A DNA stretch of 64,000 nucleotides from Verrucomicrobiia bacterium (GTDB lineage Bacteria > Verrucomicrobiota > Verrucomicrobiia > Limisphaerales > CAIMTB01), in assembly GCA_019634625.1 (NCBI GenBank), contig JAHCBA010000030.1:1-64000 (forward strand), read 5' to 3'. The translations under genes were made by a program, and so were the position numbers. Each line of letters opens with the position of its first letter. The stretch's first letter is position 1. Below the pieces are notes generated by a model. The model made no database searches and was not told where the DNA came from. It saw nothing but the letters and a program-made list of their open reading frames with translations. Shown here piece after piece: positions 5,710 to 63,003 of this stretch.

Positions 5710-5840
5710 CGAAATTCTCCCCGGCGGCACGCCTTTCCATCGGAGGGCCCAGCTCCCGCGAGGCCAGGCACGGGTTTCGATCGCAGGGGTGGACTCGCGG
5801 AGCTCGTCCCTCCGATTTCAACCCCTCGGGGAACCGTTGC

Positions 5841-14093: not shown

Positions 14094-14186
14094 ATCCCAC
14101 GCGTCCTCGTACTCGTACTCAGCCCGAAGGGCGGTACTCGTCCTCGAGGTTCCGCGCCCCCGTTCGATCATGAAAGAACCGGCCCT
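14094..14186. repeat. Dispersed intergenic repeat R2, copy 1
   Basis: About 93 bp beginning CATCCCACGCGTCCTCG, with a small hairpin core AGCCCGAAGGGCGGTAC, and ending near GGCCCTCACC. It closely resembles 23691-23782, and a shorter version lies at 23320-23367. All copies lie in gene-free sequence. The right end abuts the permease gene fragment that begins at 14181. Confidence 0.7.
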
Positions 14187-14400
14187 CACCATCGTCCCCG
14201 TTTTCGGACTCGCGTGCCTGGGGCAGAGCCACCGCCAGGACCTCGAAGCCACCTTGCGCGAGGCCTCGGGAAGAGTGACCGAAGGCCGTCGCCACCGCCT
14301 ACTTCAGCGGGGCCCAGCATTCTTACGGCGACCAACCGTGGTTGCTCGGCAGATCCGCCGTCCTCCCGCCCCCGCCCCTCAGGCAGGCCGTCACGGAACG
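14181..14400 (+). pseudogene. Internally deleted fragment of the ADOP permease gene
   Basis: Bases 14181-14298 match 19958-20075, and 14299-14400 match 20660-20761, inside the intact permease gene at 18840-21236. The intervening 584 bp are missing. The five bases ACCGC are present at both edges of the deleted interval, consistent with a microhomology-mediated deletion. There is no start codon and the reading frame is broken. Mismatches are few, so the copy is fairly young. Confidence 0.85.
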
Positions 14401-18400: not shown

Positions 18401-18560
18401 CCATTCCTCCCCTGACACCCCTGCCCCCGCGATGGATTTCGGGCCCCCCTGCTCCACTGAATGCCACCGCCCCAGCTCCTCCCACTTGTCGTTCACCACC
18501 ACCCCGCAAAGGGCGCATCTGCGAGTTGTCCGGAAGTCGCAACGGATCGGGGTCGGGGCC

Positions 18561-18719
18561 GTGTATCCCGGAGTTGTGGGGAGAGGTGCGAACGTCGCCG
18601 AGCGGCGCTTCGGAGGGCCTAGTTCCACGAGCCCGCAACGGTGTGGAACGTTGGGTTGAGGACTCGCAGAGCTCGTCCCTCCGATTCGCTGCCTTCTCAC
18701 CCACAACTCCGGGATGCAC
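18561..18719. repeat. 159-bp inverted-repeat element, copy A
   Basis: The ends are inverted repeats of about 20-25 bp: GTGTATCCCGGAGTTGTGGG on the left and the complement of GTGCATCCCGGAGTTGTGGG on the right. The interior carries the family cores (CTTCGGAGGGCC..GTTCCACGAG and GACTCGCAGAGCTCGTCCCTCCG). Both sides are flanked by the direct repeat CGGGGTCGGGG (18548-18558 and 18720-18730), resembling a target-site duplication. Other full copies are at 50658 and 60600. No coding capacity. Confidence 0.85.
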
Positions 18720-18839
18720 CGGGGTCGGGGTCGCTATGGGAATCGGTATTGACTGGAGCCATGAGGATTCCCGGATCTCGTCTCGACAGCCTCCCCCCCT
18801 GTTTTCCAGTTTTCCTGACGCTCCTTCGACGCTCCCCCC

Positions 18840-21236
18840 ATGACCGACCTGTCCCAGGCCCTCCGTTCCCTCAGACGTCATCCCCGCTTCAGCAGCACCA
18901 TCGCAGTCATCCTCGCCCTCGCTTTTGGAGCCGTCATGGTCGTCGTTCGTCTCGGACATCTCGCCCTCGATCGCCCCCTTCCCATCCGGACACCCGGCGA
19001 GGTGTTCGCCCTGGTCGTCCCCGAAGTCGGCAGCCACTTTTCCATACCCGGCTTCGACTCCGTTCGATCCCAAACCCACCTCTTCTCCGACACCACCGCG
19101 TTCGCCACCAGCACCCAGGTCGTTCGGCACGATCATCATGCCTCGCGCCGACACCTCCAACTGGTCGCCCCCAACTACTTCGAGTTCATGGGCATCACCC
19201 CTGCCCTCGGACGCCCGCTGACCACGGCGGACCGCAGCCTCCCGCACCTGGTCATCGCCCACGCCTGGTGGCAAGGCGAGTTCGGTTCCAGCCCCGACGT
19301 CCTGGGTCGGACCGTCCAGATCCAGGGACGACCGTTCACCGTGACCGGCGTTGCCCCGCCCAACTTCCCGGGTTGCACCCCCCTCGATCCTGCCGATGGC
19401 TGGCTGCCCCTGGACTTCGAATCGGATCTGGGACTGCCCGGACAATTCACGTACGGGGGAGGGCGTTGGCTCAAAACCCTCGTCCGACTCCACCCCGGCC
19501 GCACCCCCGACACCACCGCCGCCGCACTCCGCGTCATCGAGTCGGACCTGCTGGAACCCTGGATGATCGAGGAGCGCCGGCACCTCGAACTGGTACCCGC
19601 CGGGCGCGGCCTCATCCCGTTCGAACGACGCGCCGAGGGCCGTCGCGCCCTCACCGGATTGCAGGCTGCCGTCGCCATGGTGCTCTTGGCAACCGTTGCC
19701 AATCTGGCAGGTCTCATCGCTTCCCACAGCCTTCAACGCGACCGGGAACGCGCTGTCCGTCTCGCCCTCGGCGCCACCCGAGGCGCCCTCCTCCGCCAAT
19801 CCCTCGGGGAAGGAGTCCTCCTCGCCGCAGCCGCCACCCTCCTTGGAACCCTCTTCGCCAGCGCTGCCTGGCGTGCCCTGTCCGCCGTCCTCCCATCCCT
19901 GGCCCCGTTCGCCGCCGACGCTCCCGGGGTTCTCCCCGCCCTTCTCACCGGGCTCCTGGCCCTCACCATCGTCCCCGTTTTCGGACTCGCGTGCCTGGGG
20001 CAGAGCCACCGCCACGACCTCGAAGCCACCTTGCGCGGGGCCTCGGGAGGAGTGACCGAAGGCCGTCGCCACCGCATCCTCGGCAGTGCCTTGATTGCCC
20101 TGCAGGTCGCCTTGTCCGCGGTGCTTCTGCTGGGCGCCTTCAATGTCGCCCAAGCCCTCCGCCAGCGAAGTTCCCTTCCGTCCGGCATCGACTCCGGCCC
20201 AGCATGGATCGCCCGCTTGTGGCTCCGTGAACCCTCCGCCGCTCCCCCGGTCTTTGCCCTCCAACTCGAGGCGCTCCAGGCCCAACTCCAAACCATGCCC
20301 GGCGTGGCCCACGTCGCCCTGGCCACCGATCCGCCCCTCGGTCCCTCCGCGCGCATGGCAACGCTGGGAGGTCACCCGCACGCCGACTCCCCCCGCCTGT
20401 ACACCATGAACGCCGTTTCTCCGGGCTTCTTCGCCACTCTTGGCATTCCCCTCCTCGCGGGTCGTGATTTCGCCCCACACGACCACTCCAACGCCGAACC
20501 GGTTGTGATCCTCAGCCGCCGCCTTGCTGAAGCCCTGACAACCGACGGCTCCGTCCTCGACACTCTTGTCTCTCTCCAAGGCCGGTCCCACCGGGTCGTC
20601 GGCATCGTCGAAGAAGCCCGCTACCTTCGCTTCGAGCCCCCTTTCCTTCTTGGTACCGCCTACTTCAGCGGGGCCCAGCATTCCTACGGCGACCAACCGT
20701 GGTTGATCGGCAGATCCGCCATCCTCCCGCCCCTGTCCCTCAGCCAGGCCGTCACGGAACGTATCCAGGCCGCGGATCCGGGTCGCCAGCCTCCTCTTGT
20801 GGAATCCTACGCAGCCTTTGCCCGGCAAACCCTCAGGGACCAGCGCCTCAGCGCCCGTCTCCTCGCCAGTGCCAGTGCCATCGGGCTCATCCTCGTCAGC
20901 CTCGGCATCTTCGCCATCCTCACTCATCAGGTTGCCCGTCGCACCCGCGAGATTGCCCTGCGCCTCGCCCTGGGTGCCTCCCGATCCCGCGTCGTCGCCA
21001 TGGTCCTGCGTGGAGCCCTCGTTCCCACCACCCTCGGCCTCGTTCTCGGCGCCTCTGCTGCGGCCTTCCTGTCCCCCCGGTTGGCCGACATCGCCCTCGT
21101 CGTCTCCACCCGCCCCACCCCCACACACGTCGCCCTCGTTGCCCTTGGACTTCTCACCCTCGCCGTCCTCGCCGGCGCCACCTCCGCCCGCCGTGCCGCC
21201 CGCCTGGACCCCATGACCCCCCTTCGGGCCGACTGA
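18840..21236 (+). CDS. MacB/FtsX-family permease of the duplicated orphan (ADOP) type
   Basis: The 798-residue protein starts with the ADOP signature MTDLSQALRSLRRHPRFSST. It has two MacB_PCD/FtsX halves, each a periplasmic domain plus membrane segments: an N-terminal TM near 20-40, a first cluster of three TMs around 275-390, and a second cluster near the C-terminus (ILVSLGIFAILTHQVARRTREIALRLALGAS). No ATPase is encoded beside it, which is typical of these orphan permeases. The likely role is export or lipoprotein/antimicrobial handling, but the substrate is unknown. Two short stretches of this gene have been copied to 14181-14400. The start is the ATG at 18840, directly followed by the family motif. 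Confidence 0.85.
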   Translation: MTDLSQALRSLRRHPRFSSTIAVILALAFGAVMVVVRLGHLALDRPLPIRTPGEVFALVVPEVGSHFSIPGFDSVRSQTHLFSDTTAFATSTQVVRHDHHASRRHLQLVAPNYFEFMGITPALGRPLTTADRSLPHLVIAHAWWQGEFGSSPDVLGRTVQIQGRPFTVTGVAPPNFPGCTPLDPADGWLPLDFESDLGLPGQFTYGGGRWLKTLVRLHPGRTPDTTAAALRVIESDLLEPWMIEERRHLELVPAGRGLIPFERRAEGRRALTGLQAAVAMVLLATVANLAGLIASHSLQRDRERAVRLALGATRGALLRQSLGEGVLLAAAATLLGTLFASAAWRALSAVLPSLAPFAADAPGVLPALLTGLLALTIVPVFGLACLGQSHRHDLEATLRGASGGVTEGRRHRILGSALIALQVALSAVLLLGAFNVAQALRQRSSLPSGIDSGPAWIARLWLREPSAAPPVFALQLEALQAQLQTMPGVAHVALATDPPLGPSARMATLGGHPHADSPRLYTMNAVSPGFFATLGIPLLAGRDFAPHDHSNAEPVVILSRRLAEALTTDGSVLDTLVSLQGRSHRVVGIVEEARYLRFEPPFLLGTAYFSGAQHSYGDQPWLIGRSAILPPLSLSQAVTERIQAADPGRQPPLVESYAAFARQTLRDQRLSARLLASASAIGLILVSLGIFAILTHQVARRTREIALRLALGASRSRVVAMVLRGALVPTTLGLVLGASAAAFLSPRLADIALVVSTRPTPTHVALVALGLLTLAVLAGATSARRAARLDPMTPLRAD

Positions 21237-23378: not shown

Positions 23379-23464
23379 CCGGGGTCACATCTCTGATTTT
23401 GACAATTACTCTCGGAGTGCGGCTTGGCTTCTTCCAATTGTCAAAATCAGAGATCTGACCCCGG
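23379..23464. repeat. 29-bp inverted repeat with 28-nt loop (REP/MITE-like)
   Basis: The left arm 23379-23407 (CCGGGGTCACATCTCTG, continuing to GACAATT) and right arm 23436-23464 are reverse complements except for one base. A related single arm (GGGGTCAAATCTATATTTTTAC) lies at 23245. GGGGTCA-headed palindromes of this kind resemble REP sequences mobilised by RAYT/Y1 transposases; no transposase is present in this window. Confidence 0.75.
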
Positions 23465-23489: not shown

Positions 23490-23522
23490 TCGGAGGGACG
23501 AGCTCCGCGAGTCCTCATCCCA
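23490..23522. repeat. Fragment of the 159-bp inverted-repeat element
   Basis: Matches the conserved interior CGGAGGGACGAGCTCCGCGA with its GTCCTCATCCCA continuation, as in the copy at 60600. Both terminal repeats are missing. Confidence 0.6.
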
Positions 23523-23690
23523 TCGCTCCATCCTGGCATCCGCCATCGCTCACACAGAGACTCCAAGGCCCGGAGGGGAAACGCGGACAGGCATCCGAAA
23601 TCCATGCGGGAGCGCCTTGGTCTGCCTCCGTGTCTCCGTGCCTCCGTGTGAGGAACAGCCACTGCGGTTCGCCCGCACAGGAACGTGCGC

Positions 23691-23782: not shown

Positions 23783-23968
23783 CGCTCAGCCTCGAATCCG
23801 TCACGAGGGCGTGCACAGATTGCCGATCCTTCGAGGGACCGAACCGGGACGATCCGGTCCTATGCCGCTTCAAGGCCTCGAGTACGAGTACGATGAAGCC
23901 GGGACGCGGTGCATCGAATCGCGAATCGCAGCAAGGGCATCCCACAACGGTCAGAATGCGGTGAGAGG

Positions 23969-24140
23969 GCGGACAAGGCTGTCCGCGCTCCGAACGGGGA
24001 CCGCGGGGGCGGACAGGGCTGTCCGCGCTCCGAACAGACCGAGGGGGCGGACAGGGCTGTCCGCGCTCCGAACGGACCGAGGGGGCGGACAGGGCTGTCC
24101 GCGCTCCGAACGGACCGAGGGGGCGGACAAGGCTGTCCGC
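23969..24140. repeat. Five-unit array of about 38-bp repeats, each a strong hairpin
   Basis: GCGGACAGGGCTGTCCGC, or the AAGG variant, recurs at 23969, 24009, 24047, 24085 and 24123, with steps of 40, 38, 38 and 38 bp. Each unit is GCGGACAG-GG-CTGTCCGC with 8-bp arms, followed by GCTCCGAACGGACCGAGGG. There are no unique spacers, so it is not a CRISPR array. It starts about 145 bp beyond the rpoC stop, in the direction rpoC is transcribed. Confidence 0.85.
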
Positions 24141-24284
24141 GCTCCGAGCGGACAGGGGGCACCCATCTCCGATCAGGAGGCGCACCCTGTTATCGCGACG
24201 GCCGGCGCGGAAGGTTGCCCAACTTCCAGGCAACCCTCCTCCCCCCTAATCGCCACTCGCCACTCGCCGTTCCCGATTCGCCCC

Positions 24285-48138: not shown

Positions 48139-48273
48139 CCGGCAAAGGAAGTGCCCCGCGCCGTCTGCCTTCGGAGCGCCCAATTCCACGAGGCATCCTG
48201 TCTTCGGAGGGCCGAGTTCCACGAGGCATCCTGTCTTCGGAGGGCCGGGTTCCACGAGGCCGGCAAGGAAGTG
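48139..48273. repeat. Tandem 33-bp repeat (2.8 units) derived from the 159-bp element core
   Basis: Units at 48169-48201, 48202-48234 and 48235-48259 read CTTCGGAGGGCC.AGTTCCACGAGG plus CATCCTGT. This is the same core as inside the 159-bp elements. The array is bracketed by CCGGCAAAGGAAGTG (48139-48153) and CCGGCAAGGAAGTG (48260-48273) as direct repeats. Confidence 0.8.
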
Positions 48274-49557: not shown

Positions 49558-50592
49558 CTAAGCTCGGAGTTGGTCCAGCTTCGCCGCCGCCGCGCCGGAA
49601 TCGATCTCCTCAGCCGCCCGTTCCCGCCCTTCCTGGATGCTCCCCGCCCGACCCGCCACGAACAGCGCCGCCCCGGCGTTCAACAACACCGCCTCCCGCT
49701 TCACACCCCGCTCTTCGCCCGCCAGAATCCGGCGCACGATCGCCGCATTCTCCTCGCGATCCCCCCCGGCCAGATCCGCCAGCGTCGCCGGCGGCAGATC
49801 CCAGTCCGCCGCCGACAATGTGCCGGTCGAAAACCCCCGCTCATGGTGAAACTCCGCCACCTGCGTGTCCCCCAGAACGGACAGCTCGTCCAGCGCCCCT
49901 TCCGGCGTCTCCCCGCACACCACCATGGCCCGCCGCAGCCCCAGCTCCTGCAAGACCCGCGCCAGCGGAGCGCACAGCGACGGCACCGACACCCCCACCA
50001 ACTGCCCTGACGGACGGGCCGGATTCAACAGCGGCCCGAGGAAATTGAAGATCGTACGCTGCCCCTGTCCGGCACACAGCTTCCGGGCCGCCGCCAGATG
50101 CTTGAACGCCGGGTGATACCGTGGCGCAAAAAAGAAGGCGAAATCCTTCGCCTCCAACGCCTCCGCCGCCTCCGCCGGCGGCAGTTCGATGGGAATCCCC
50201 AGCGCCTCCAGCACATCCGCGCTCCCTGCCTTCGACGTGATGGCCCGGTTCCCGTGCTTGGCCACCGGCACCCCCGCGCTCGCCAACACCAGCGCCACGG
50301 TCGTCGAAATGTTGAACGTGTTCCGATGGTCCCCCCCCGTGCCGCACACATCCACAATCCCCCGCTCCCGCGTCGCCACCCGGATCGGCGGCGCCACCGC
50401 CAGATCCCGCAATTCCAACGCAAATCCAGCAATCTCCGCCGGCGTCTCTCCCCGCCGCGCCAGGGCCATCAGAAACTCCGCCTTCACCTCCGCCGGCACC
50501 CCCTCGTCCGTCAATGCCGCCACCGCCTTCGAAATCTCCGTCGAGACCAGCTCCCGGCCCTGCCGGATTCCTTCCGTGAGAACATCGAGCAT
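49558..50592 (-). CDS. trpD: Anthranilate phosphoribosyltransferase
   Basis: The 344-residue product transfers phosphoribose to anthranilate in tryptophan synthesis. It has the PRPP-binding loop VDVCGTGGDHRNTFNISTT, the HGNRAITSKAGSADVLEALG block and FFFAPRYHPAFKHLA. No other trp genes are adjacent. Just upstream (50658-50816) is a full copy of the 159-bp element. Confidence 0.96.
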   Translation of the reverse strand: MLDVLTEGIRQGRELVSTEISKAVAALTDEGVPAEVKAEFLMALARRGETPAEIAGFALELRDLAVAPPIRVATRERGIVDVCGTGGDHRNTFNISTTVALVLASAGVPVAKHGNRAITSKAGSADVLEALGIPIELPPAEAAEALEAKDFAFFFAPRYHPAFKHLAAARKLCAGQGQRTIFNFLGPLLNPARPSGQLVGVSVPSLCAPLARVLQELGLRRAMVVCGETPEGALDELSVLGDTQVAEFHHERGFSTGTLSAADWDLPPATLADLAGGDREENAAIVRRILAGEERGVKREAVLLNAGAALFVAGRAGSIQEGRERAAEEIDSGAAAAKLDQLRA

Positions 50593-50657
50593 GGGCGCAG
50601 GCTACCGCCCCCCCGAACCCGCCGCGACCGGAATCTCGGCCCCGTAGATTCCCCCCG

Positions 50658-50816
50658 GTGCATCCCGGTGTGGTGGGTGAGGAGGCAGCGAACCGGAGGG
50701 ACGAGCTCTGCGAGTCCTCCACCCAACGCCCCCCACCGTTGCCGCCTCGTGGAACCCGGCCCTCCGAAGCACCGCCTGGCGGAGTTCGCACCTCGCCCCA
50801 CAACTCCGCGATGCAC
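50658..50816. repeat. 159-bp inverted-repeat element, copy B
   Basis: Begins GTGCATCCCGGTGTGGTGGG and ends in the complementary CCACAACTCCGCGATGCAC. Its interior carries CGGAGGGACGAGCTCTGCGAGTCCTC and CCTCGTGGAACCCGGCCCTCCG. It lies between trpD (5' side) and the M23 gene (3' end). No flanking direct repeat is obvious. Confidence 0.85.
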
Positions 50817-50822
50817 AGGCTC

Positions 50823-57857: not shown

Positions 57858-57972
57858 CGGGTCAGGCCCGTACACAGTTCACGTCGCGGTCAGGACCAGG
57901 CCGGGTGGACCCGTCCGCCGTCAGAGCCTGTCTGAAAACTGGAAGGACCCCTTCCCGTTTTCAGACAGGCTC
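57858..57972. repeat. REP-like element, copy 1
   Basis: Begins CGGGTCAGGCCCGTACAC and ends in GTTTTCAGACAGGCTCT. The same two end sequences bound 62823-63003. The right part is the long hairpin described separately. Confidence 0.75.
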
Positions 57973-58692: not shown

Positions 58693-58787
58693 ACGGCGCT
58701 CCCGCGGACGCTGCGCCCACGCCGCACGCATCGCAAACGAGAATGAGAACGGCGACGAGGACGCAGCGGGAGGCAGCCTTCAGCGCG

Positions 58788-58879
58788 GTGCCTCCCGGAG
58801 TTGTGGTTGAGGTGGCAGCCCATCGGAGGGACGAGCTCCGCGAGTCCTCAACCCAACGCTCCACACCGTTCCGGCCCCG
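58788..58879. repeat. 159-bp inverted-repeat element, copy C (right end missing)
   Basis: Begins GTGCCTCCCGGAGTTGTGG, has the core CGGAGGGACGAGCTCCGCGA, and ends at CCACACCGTTCCGGCC. The second half and right terminal repeat are absent. It lies 5' of the DUF2270 gene. Confidence 0.8.
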
Positions 58880-58907
58880 CAGACGTTCGACCTGCACCGA
58901 ATCGAGC

Positions 58908-60500
58908 CTACGGCGCAACGCTCTTCCAGGCGTCGATGCGACGGCTCCAGGTGTCCATGTCGAAGTTGGCCGGACGTTCGTAGTCCTGGTTCACCAGGAG
59001 TTCCTCCAGCGTCACCGGCGCCGTGCGGACGCCCCCTTCCGGCACCTCGCGCCCGGCGATCCAGACGATCGCATTGAGGACCGCCGTCCGGAAACCCGGG
59101 TGCGCCCAGTTCCAGTGGTAATGTGCGCCGGTGATGCCGAAGCCGCGGCCGGGCATCTGTCCGCGCTGATAGGTCCACATGAGATGCTGGGATTCGCGGC
59201 GTTCCAGAACGGCCGCCCGCACCTGGGGGTTGCCCGAGTGCGGTCCGTCGGGGCGGCTGAGCGATTCCGGCGGCGGCAGGGCGCTGAAAATGGGCACGAC
59301 CTGTTCCAGATCGTCGGCAAACCGCATGTGGTAATACCACTCGTCGTAGATCTCGAAGGGCTTCACTCCACGGGCCGCCGGGTGCCCGGGCAACTGCCGG
59401 ATGCTGGCCGTCCAGTGCGGGTTCACCGACCAGTGGGTCTCGAAGTAACCGCCAAGCCAGCGCAGGAAATAGTCGCCCGAATCCCCCTTGGGAATCTCGA
59501 CGGCGTAGTGAATTGCCCCGAGTCCGACCCCCCGCTTCATCACCTCGTCCAGCCGGTCCAGGTGAGGCAACGCCATGTGACCGCCGCCACCATTCGAGAA
59601 CATCACGATCGCATCGGCATTGTCGAAGGCGGTCGGGTCCTTGGGCCATCCATTCGTGTACACCGCCGACTGGATGCCCTCGACGTTCTCCCCAAGCAAC
59701 CGGGCCAGCAGCAGGCATCCGGCTCGATGCTCGTGGTTGCCGTATCCATGGCTGAGCGTCCCCGCCACGAACACCACCTTCTTGCGGTCATCGCTCAATG
59801 GCAGACGCCGCAGCTGGACGTCCCGGATCTCCACCCGCATCGGCGGACCGCTGTGCAACTGGAAGGCCAGCAGCCCGTCGAATCGCGCCTCCGACCCGAG
59901 ATCGATGAGCTCGCTCATCTTCACCCCGTTGACCCGGGTCACCAGGTGGTTTCCCCGCGCCGTGATGTGGTACTCGTTCCAGTCGCGCAACCGCACCCGG
60001 GCAGCCAGCGCGTCGCCATCGCCCCAACGCGTCACCGTGCGTGTCCCGTCCGGCGCGATCACCACCGTCTCGCCACGGCGCGCCAGGATGCCGCGCCCGC
60101 GCTCCTCGTACAGCGCCCCCGTCCAGCCGTCATTCGACAGGTCCGGCTGGTAGCCGCCGACGACGTAGGTGCCGTGGCGGACGGACCGGATCTGGACGCC
60201 GGAATTGGCATAGTCCGTCGGCATCCGGAACCGGAGCCGGATCTCGAAATCGTCCACCCCGCCGCGTTCCCAGATGAGGAAGGTGTTCCCCTCGGCCACA
60301 TTCGAGGGTGTCGTCTCGCCCACGATCGACCCGTTCTCGACCCGCCAGAATCGCGGGTCGCCGCTCCAGCCCTCGAGCGTGGTCCCGTCAAAGATGCGCT
60401 GGAAACCCGGCTCCGTTCCAGGCGCGGCGGCGGCAGGGAGCACCGTCCACACAAGACAGGCGACGGCAACGCAGAGTCGGGAGGTTCGAAACGGATTCAT
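58908..60500 (-). CDS. Secreted DUF1080 (3-keto-disaccharide hydrolase-like) plus ThuA-like fusion protein
   Basis: The 530-residue product has a signal peptide (MNPFRTSRLCVAVACLVWTVLPAAAA). A DUF1080 lectin-like/hydrolase domain follows (GFQRIFDGTTLEGWSGDPRFWRVENGSIVGE, DYANSGVQIRS, RDWNEYHITARGNHL). The C-terminal ThuA-like domain starts KKVVFVAGTLSHGYGNHEHRAG. In this phylum such fusions act in extracellular sugar breakdown. The actual substrate is unknown. The ATG at 60500 places the signal peptide at the N-terminus. Confidence 0.88.
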   Translation of the reverse strand: MNPFRTSRLCVAVACLVWTVLPAAAAPGTEPGFQRIFDGTTLEGWSGDPRFWRVENGSIVGETTPSNVAEGNTFLIWERGGVDDFEIRLRFRMPTDYANSGVQIRSVRHGTYVVGGYQPDLSNDGWTGALYEERGRGILARRGETVVIAPDGTRTVTRWGDGDALAARVRLRDWNEYHITARGNHLVTRVNGVKMSELIDLGSEARFDGLLAFQLHSGPPMRVEIRDVQLRRLPLSDDRKKVVFVAGTLSHGYGNHEHRAGCLLLARLLGENVEGIQSAVYTNGWPKDPTAFDNADAIVMFSNGGGGHMALPHLDRLDEVMKRGVGLGAIHYAVEIPKGDSGDYFLRWLGGYFETHWSVNPHWTASIRQLPGHPAARGVKPFEIYDEWYYHMRFADDLEQVVPIFSALPPPESLSRPDGPHSGNPQVRAAVLERRESQHLMWTYQRGQMPGRGFGITGAHYHWNWAHPGFRTAVLNAIVWIAGREVPEGGVRTAPVTLEELLVNQDYERPANFDMDTWSRRIDAWKSVAP

Positions 60501-60599
60501 GATGGTGTGGCCCACAATGGGCGGGGCCGGTGACGGGCACAGGTTGAAGCCCATTGCCCTGGGGGTTCAAGACGGTTCTCAACCCGGTTCCACGACCCG

Positions 60600-60758
60600 G
60601 TGCATCCCGGAGTTGTGGGTGAGGAGGCAGCGGATCGGAGGGACGAGCTCCGCGAGTCCTCATCCCAACGCACCCCATCGTTGCGGCCTCGTGGAACTCG
60701 GCCCTCCAAAGCCACGCCTCGCGAAGCCCGCACCTCTCCCCGCAACTCCGGGATGCAC
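60600..60758. repeat. 159-bp inverted-repeat element, copy D
   Basis: The ends are inverted repeats (GTGCATCCCGGAGTTGTGGG and the complement of GTGCATCCCGGAGTTGCGGG). The flanks are GGTTCCACGACC (60586-60597) and GGTCCACGACC (60759-60769), again like a target-site duplication. It lies in the spacer between the divergent DUF1080 and IPT genes. Confidence 0.85.
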
Positions 60759-60825
60759 GGTCCACGACCAGTCCCCCTTCGGGGGCTGGCGCGGTGTCGT
60801 CCCCGATGGCATCGTGATCGCTCTT

Positions 60826-62822: not shown

Positions 62823-63003
62823 GGGGTCAGGCCCGTACACGGCACATTCCCCAGAAACCCTTCGGGCGACGGTCCTTTCGTCCTGGGCCGGCGTCGGCCC
62901 GGCCGTGACAGCCCGCTGCGGGGATGCACCGGCCTCGCCTTCCCCCGGCTGCGGAACCCGTATCCCTCATCGCAGGGCCCCTTCCGGTTTTCAGACAGGC
63001 TCT
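62823..63003. repeat. REP-like element, copy 2
   Basis: Begins GGGGTCAGGCCCGTACAC and ends in CCCTTCCGGTTTTCAGACAG with a GCTCT continuation, matching the ends of copy 1. The interior is different and longer, and the left arm of the hairpin is missing. It lies just beyond the purF stop. Confidence 0.7.

Follow-up and report, generated by a model that had tools for sequence, protein, structure and literature searches.

Repeats scattered through a 64,000-nucleotide stretch of a Verrucomicrobiia draft genome (contig JAHCBA010000030.1, positions 1 to 64,000; hereafter the window) very probably form a MITE family that has been moved in trans by an ISKra4-type, Mutator-like transposase with a preference for sites at a fixed distance from a promoter −35 element. 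The ends of the repeats, their 9-bp target duplication, their copy number, the ends that they share with an insertion sequence (IS), the offset of a −35-like motif on the gene-start side and the recurrence of the pattern in another genome were all directly observed. An earlier note, made from the letters of the window alone, had left the choice between a non-autonomous MITE-like element and a structured RNA/DNA element. The first is supported by the exact ends, the terminal inverted repeats (TIRs), the 9-bp duplications and the existence of a transposase-bearing counterpart that shares those ends.

Anatomy and abundance of the repeat family

The window contains three full copies (A, B and D) and one partial copy (C), which are given here with their flanking features.

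18550 to 18558: left copy of the target-site duplication of A, GGGTCGGGG
18559 to 18721, minus strand: MITE copy A, 163 bp, inverted, with the 159-bp core at 18561-18719
18722 to 18730: right copy of the target-site duplication of A, GGGTCGGGG
18749 to 18754, plus strand: −35-like TTGACT at base 28 outward from A, directed at the gene at 18840
18840 to 21236, plus strand: gene downstream of A, MacB_PCD/FtsX permease
49558 to 50592, minus strand: glycosyl transferase family 3 gene (Glycos_transf_3), towards which the left end of B points
50656 to 50818, plus strand: MITE copy B, 163 bp, with the 159-bp core at 50658-50816; target duplication not surviving
58786 to 58880, plus strand: MITE partial copy C, left half only
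58908 to 60500, minus strand: gene downstream of D, 3keto-disac_hyd/ThuA protein; start probably at 60500 (MNPFRT...)
60565 to 60570, minus strand: −35-like TTGAAC at base 28 outward from D, directed at the gene ending at 58908
60589 to 60597: left copy of the target-site duplication of D, TCCACGACC
60598 to 60760, plus strand: MITE copy D, 163 bp, with the 159-bp core at 60600-60758
60761 to 60769: right copy of the target-site duplication of D, TCCACGACC

Copies A, B and D each measure 159 bp from GTGCAT to ATGCAC and share a pairwise identity of 87%. Their assignment to one family in the earlier note holds, but the 159-bp length given there does not: comparison of the flanks of 32, then 66 and then 102 copies revealed that the element extends two bases further at each end, making a unit of 163 bp. 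These extra bases are CG or CC on the left in 81 of the 102 copies and GG or CG on the right in 74; the left end starts with C in 83 and the right end finishes with G in 87. The MITE is an imperfect palindrome with matching TIRs of about 26 bp at both ends (C-S-GTGCATCCCGGAGTTGTGGGTGAGGA) and, judging from its length and context, has no coding capacity. The TIR core GTGCATCCCGGAGTTG was found seven times in the window with up to three mismatches, against 1.06 expected, and none of 100 shuffles reached seven. The sequence at 58788, noted earlier as a partial copy, is a left-half remnant of the family, 94% identical to the consensus over the first 80 bases and 68% over 159.

Direct repeats of 11-12 bp had been described at copies A and D. 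These repeats are real and match at 9/9 positions at each copy, but their length is 9 bp and the remaining bases are chance neighbours. In the set of 102 copies, which left out end pairs without a core unit within seven mismatches, copies near the end of a stretch and duplicates, the flanks of 49 match at 8/9 or better (27 at 9/9 and 22 at 8/9), compared with 0.06% of flank pairs taken from different copies. Flank agreement reaches 66.8% of positions at the 9-bp frame versus about 27-35% elsewhere, apart from frames that share the same bases. The flanks of copy B match at 3/9 positions, and we found no target duplication there.

To measure abundance, we searched the 6.74-Mb draft genome with a 20-base TIR. 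With up to three mismatches there were 280 + 266 matches (2 + 0 for a reversed control), corresponding to as many as about 270 elements; the family thus numbers a few hundred copies, not three. Of the 72 copies that measure 159 bp, 71 have 84 to 96% identity to the consensus and a single outlier has 46.5%. The closest pairs differ at 1-3/159 bases, which indicates that movement was not all ancient, and some copies differ at 1/159, pointing to recent movement. We also sought empty sites in four genomes of the same genus, which aligned only in patches of 65-93% identity, none across an insertion site; these genomes are too diverged.

Gene context was scored for 86 copies in 1.25 Mb of long stretches with a crude, purpose-written gene caller. 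We counted 37 copies in tandem, 31 in divergent and 10 in convergent gaps, 7 overlapping a called gene and 1 at an edge. The earlier description of all copies as intergenic is thus right for most; one of the seven exceptions is copy D, which overlaps a called plus-strand ORF whose called start is doubtful. The long stretches are enriched for copies, the 60 fetched ones having been picked around known TIR matches; the gene-side and base-28 comparisons described below, the latter internal to each flank, are independent of that choice. The orientation context lay near the length-weighted background (convergent gaps hold 10/78 copies and make up 13% of gap length) and by itself gave no promoter-targeting signal, so that the promoter rule rests on the motif and the side on which it lies.

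The palindromic, extragenic character of the repeats, their hundreds of copies and the presence of solo core units in the window would also suit REP/BIME-type repeats mobilised by a RAYT (Y1) transposase. We consider this origin extremely improbable given a full-length element with TIRs, a 9-bp duplication and a DDE-type partner that shares the ends. To our knowledge, RAYT-type elements are not expected to leave target duplications of the 9-bp type.

The consensus MITE has a predicted fold of about −105 kcal/mol, a stability that a structured non-coding RNA or attenuator family would account for. However, none of 53 predicted pairs showed a compensatory change in 23 copies, no Rfam family matched the elements at the gathering threshold, and copy A gave only chance-level matches at E ≤ 1. 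The 9-bp duplications, and the position of motif-bearing elements upstream of the −35 and hence outside the downstream transcript, also argue against an RNA family. We reject the structured alternative of the earlier note as unsupported, leaving it barely any probability.

A transposase-bearing element with the same ends

The earlier note had found no transposase tied to the repeats in the window and had suggested a search for a transposase gene with the same ends. The statement is true within the window, but we found a partner outside it, both on contig C21 of the same genome and in a sibling species. In the latter, a genome of the same genus (G004, contig C12), MITE-type TIRs bracket 2195 bp with two overlapping ORFs. 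The first is DruA-like (Pfam PF14236, 4e-23; going by Pfam's name, we take this family to be the Druantia protein DruA), and the second has the ISKra4 family transposase as its best match (NCBIfam NF033572, 4e-45, 154.6 bits). The helper transposases have NF033572 as a full-length best match at 154.6, 181.8 and 176.9 bits, the NCBIfam cut-off being 205. A DruA-like ORF adjoins the transposase gene at loci L109, L110, L112, L117, L119 and L139, and at L109:159-1022 it precedes and overlaps that gene. Our search of the open-access literature returned no paper with both ISKra4 and DUF4338.

The relative in the window's own genome is a 2.2-kb element at C21:98859-101049. Its ORF2 is 59% identical to that of G004. 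Alignment of six rows, two of which represent the same element, revealed triad motifs of the form MMDGW or MLDGW, then YLVMDGA or YLVMDRA followed by LDFHH, and finally GSGAVES, with D, D and E assigned by alignment position, not structure. The C21 ORF2 contains one in-frame TGA, which follows both the second conserved Asp and the LDFHH signature but precedes GSGAVES. With the in-frame stop in the sole close helper, the family is probably stranded now, immobile and with a dead helper in its own genome. C21 is the only close helper copy that we found in a draft of 88 contigs, and intact copies could accordingly be missing from the assembly.

The ends link this IS to the MITEs. The left ends of the C21 IS and of one MITE subfamily agree at all of 23 bases, and the diagnostic CA/C left end of this IS occurs in at least 20 of 102 MITEs (17 with GG/G and 3 with GG/C right ends), a lower bound taken from the 15 commonest end classes. 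Both the IS and MITE ends start with 5'-C, the terminal base reported for the ISKra4 group, and an IS in genome G086 has a 9-bp duplication, within the 8-9 bp reported for that group. We found no 9-bp duplication at the two ISs with the nearest ends (own C21 and G004 C12).

More distant autonomous relatives are present in the own genome on C35 (34%) and C27 (27%). The C35 element (L112:308-2948), of ISKra4 type, differs in its ends (GCGCATCTCAGATTTTCGG); its 9-bp duplication, CTTGGGGAG, is perfect, and TTG stands at base 28 to its right. Across the order, 112 of 320 genomes contain relatives of the transposase at E ≤ 0.001, most of them distant. A further candidate autonomous element in the own genome (C16:70501-72081, 1581 bp) was rejected; it is actually two damaged MITEs around a PQQ-like gene, a label given by eye.

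These observations suggest a model in which the helper is the 2.2-kb element with the ends of the MITE, and its transposase would recognise the MITE TIRs in trans, excise the MITE and reinsert it with a 9-bp duplication.

A fixed offset to a −35-like motif

We found that in 40 of 204 flanks TTGAC, with up to one mismatch, starts at base 28 counted outwards from the element, whereas the other 139 positions have a mean of 2.47 and a maximum of 8. Base composition read outwards hardly varies, the exceptions being bases 28-31 (T, T, G, A/C) and, less markedly, bases 51-53. Among the 170 of 204 flanks that entered the gene-side comparison, which required a copy within the long stretches and a gene on the side concerned, the motif occurs in 27 of 106 that face a gene start and in 2 of 64 that face a stop (Fisher p 9e-5). 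A −35-like motif thus stands at an exact offset on the gene-start side. When flanks of the own genome were pooled with those of G032, a genome from another family of the same order, a −10-like TANNNT was found at bases 50-53, 16-18 bp past the −35, in 13 of 69 motif-bearing flanks, with 0-2 in other 4-bp blocks. Only four flank pairs resemble each other, which indicates that the insertion sites are largely independent.

In the window, copy A has TTGACT before the MacB/FtsX gene and copy D has TTGAAC before the ThuA-type gene; copy B has only a weak match at base 28 and no clear motif. A terminator and promoter consensus scan around copy A found neither; the strict consensus rejects GC-rich −10 boxes. 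Plain TTG at base 28, on either side, is present in 38 of 102 copies. This number indicates that targeting is a preference, or that weakness or decay hides many of the promoters. A promoter score, set at a 2% control threshold per flank and with −35 weights chosen after inspection of these same flanks, gave a promoter-like match at base 28 in 57% of the 102 copies when either side was counted, and on both sides in only 5%.

The two ends of the element are not used equally. The left end faces a gene start in 64 cases and a stop in 21, compared with 42 and 43 for the right end (Fisher p 8e-4), and in tandem contexts 28 of 37 copies have the left end towards the gene (p 0.003).

The pattern recurs in other genomes of the order. 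In G032 we found 274 + 272 matches to a looser TIR pattern, as well as a MITE of 215 bp with an interior unlike that of the own-genome MITE. Thirty G032 loci were fetched and six were dropped when their ends were not found; in the 24 copies with placed ends, the duplication matches at 8-9/9 in 15, and 18 of 48 flanks have TTG at base 28, against a mean of 0.77 and a maximum of 5 at the other positions. Close MITE pairs lie exactly 13 bases (2+9+2) apart in 14 of 20 cases in G032 and 1 of 4 in the own genome, a spacing expected if one 9-bp target is used twice. Genomes G001, G055 and G057 contain single MITEs of 117-208 bp with duplications at 7-9/9, several with T at base 28, alongside other MITEs that have neither; the numbers for G001 and G057 are small, and we keep them as single examples.

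Several autonomous elements also show the offset. Among those whose ends could be placed, the G086 IS has the same CG/TG junctions and TIRs, a perfect 9-bp duplication, and TTGACA and TTGACT at base 28 on its two sides. In G096 (RA.bin27, L144) an autonomous element has TTGAAG and TTGACA at base 28, and on one side each the G004 element has TTGGGT and the own-genome C35 element TTGCTG. We did not see TTG at base 28 for the autonomous elements of own C21, G072 and G117. The elements at L119 and L144 are flanked on both sides by TTGA at base 28, as if they lay between divergent promoters.

We considered whether the offset might reflect a preference of the transposase for the sequence TTGAC itself, or for a paired GTCAA...TTGAC, and not for promoters or RNA polymerase. 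Such a preference would suit the single-base precision of the motif position, the presence of TTGA at base 28 on each side of two autonomous elements, and the near symmetry of the element's two ends. However, 27 of the 29 motif-bearing flanks face gene starts, a −10-like element that bare TTGAC would not predict lies 16-18 bp further on, and both sides score in only 5% of copies. This explanation is therefore the less likely one, although it retains appreciable weight.

Alternatively, the elements might be cis-regulatory modules, such as upstream insulators or regulator sites, that selection has kept before promoters. Hundreds of copies at one preferred distance from the −35, a left end that accounts for 64 of the 106 start-facing flanks (at the Fisher p of 8e-4 given above) and a consensus with strong hairpin potential are features that such modules might have. 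We judge this improbable: integration already leads one to expect both the offset and the orientation bias, the offset is common to autonomous ISs and an unrelated MITE, the 53 pairs lack compensatory change, and the copies stand at 84 to 96% to the consensus with one outlier at 46.5%.

We therefore favour promoter-directed integration, in which the transposase may sense promoter-bound RNA polymerase or read the −35 directly. The preferred target would place the nearer edge of the MITE 18 bp from the −35 hexamer of a sigma-70-type promoter, or 27 bp including the duplicated nine. The core promoter would remain intact, and insertion would be tolerated, presumably because about 27 bp of native DNA are kept above the −35; the family could in this way have grown to a few hundred copies.

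Relation to known elements and other repeats in the window

The ISKra4 group corresponds to p-MULT 4 of the Mutator-like DDE transposases (Guerillot et al. 2014, PMC3942029). According to the sections of that paper on these groups, p-MULT 4 has inverted repeats of 18-39 bp with a terminal C and duplications of 8-9 bp, 13 ISKra4-group ISs insert upstream of a promoter, with 13-17 bp as the criterion used, and in p-MULT 3 about 16 bp separate the −35 from the end of the element. Its phylum list for the p-MULT 4 transposase family is without Verrucomicrobia, and the word MITE was not found in its main text. As far as those sections describe the group, our elements resemble it in full-length transposase similarity, inverted repeat length, terminal C, 9-bp duplication, a D-D-E triad with the D(2)H signature and insertion upstream of promoters. 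They differ in comprising a non-coding 163-bp derivative, in a helper with a DruA-like ORF1, in a Verrucomicrobiota host, in transposases that score below the NCBIfam cut-off and in a −35 that lies 27 bp from the end, outside the 13-17 bp of some members. Promoter targeting by this kind of transposase is already known; to this our analysis adds the MITE with its 27-bp spacing, its copy number and its phylum. The spacing exceeds the published 13-17 bp by about 11 bp, or one helical turn.

TnGBS and ISLre2 (p-MULT 3) are likewise described as inserting at a set distance upstream of vegetative −35 elements and with an orientation bias, but at 15-17 bp, and they are large ICEs or ISs, not MITEs; our transposases have only weak similarity to theirs (NF033529, 59.7-65.1 bits). 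The bacterial MITEs RUP, NEMIS, ERIC and Nezha, as presented in PMC3733652, are also non-coding, 70-300 bp long and bounded by TIRs of 15-30 bp. They differ in helper family, and we found no promoter-offset rule for them in the account that this paper gives. The same source describes GTAG-tagged REPs of the verrucomicrobium O. terrae, which are also palindromic extragenic repeats from this phylum but measure 20-40 bp and have other ends, and are set apart here by description only. No paper on MITEs of this ISKra4-type family was found in the open-access PMC literature.

MITEs are usually regarded as scattered intergenic clutter. Here, the sequence by itself gives the insertion rule with single-base precision, and an unrelated MITE and autonomous elements of the order show the same rule. 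This rule makes testable how a DDE transposase recognises promoters, why the spacing is about one helical turn beyond 13-17 bp, and how a strong palindrome newly inserted just ahead of many promoters affects the transcriptome. The offset could also help to find promoters in uncultured, GC-rich genomes without RNA data. More speculatively, and at a confidence well short of even, we suggest that a Verrucomicrobiota Mutator-like transposase reads promoter-bound RNA polymerase (or the −35) one helical turn beyond its known cousins, making the MITE a uniform, in-phase 163-bp hairpin module at 100 or more promoters of one genome, independently amplified at many promoters in a genome of another family, which could insulate or be recruited as a shared regulatory site.

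Other repeats were also observed in the window. Solo MITE cores without ends lie at 5788-5817 and 23490-23530, and three tandem 33-bp units at 48165-48263 resemble the right-half core of the MITE (TTCGGAGGGCCGAGTTCCACGAGGC). A tandem array of a 38-bp repeat, GGACCGAGGGGGCGGACAGGGCTGTCCGCGCTCCGAAC, occupies 23960-24187. A near-perfect palindrome at 23379-23464, CCGGGGTCACATCTCTGATTTTGACAATT, whose 29-bp arms (97%) enclose a 28-nt centre, may be a further small mobile element, and an inverted 30-mer pair (AGAGCCTGTCTGAAAACTGGAAGG..., 90% complementary) is found at 57923-57952 and 62974-63003. Finally, two stretches of 107-123 bp are repeated at 94-96% identity between 14181-14400 and 19958-20761, the second copies lying within the MacB/FtsX gene.
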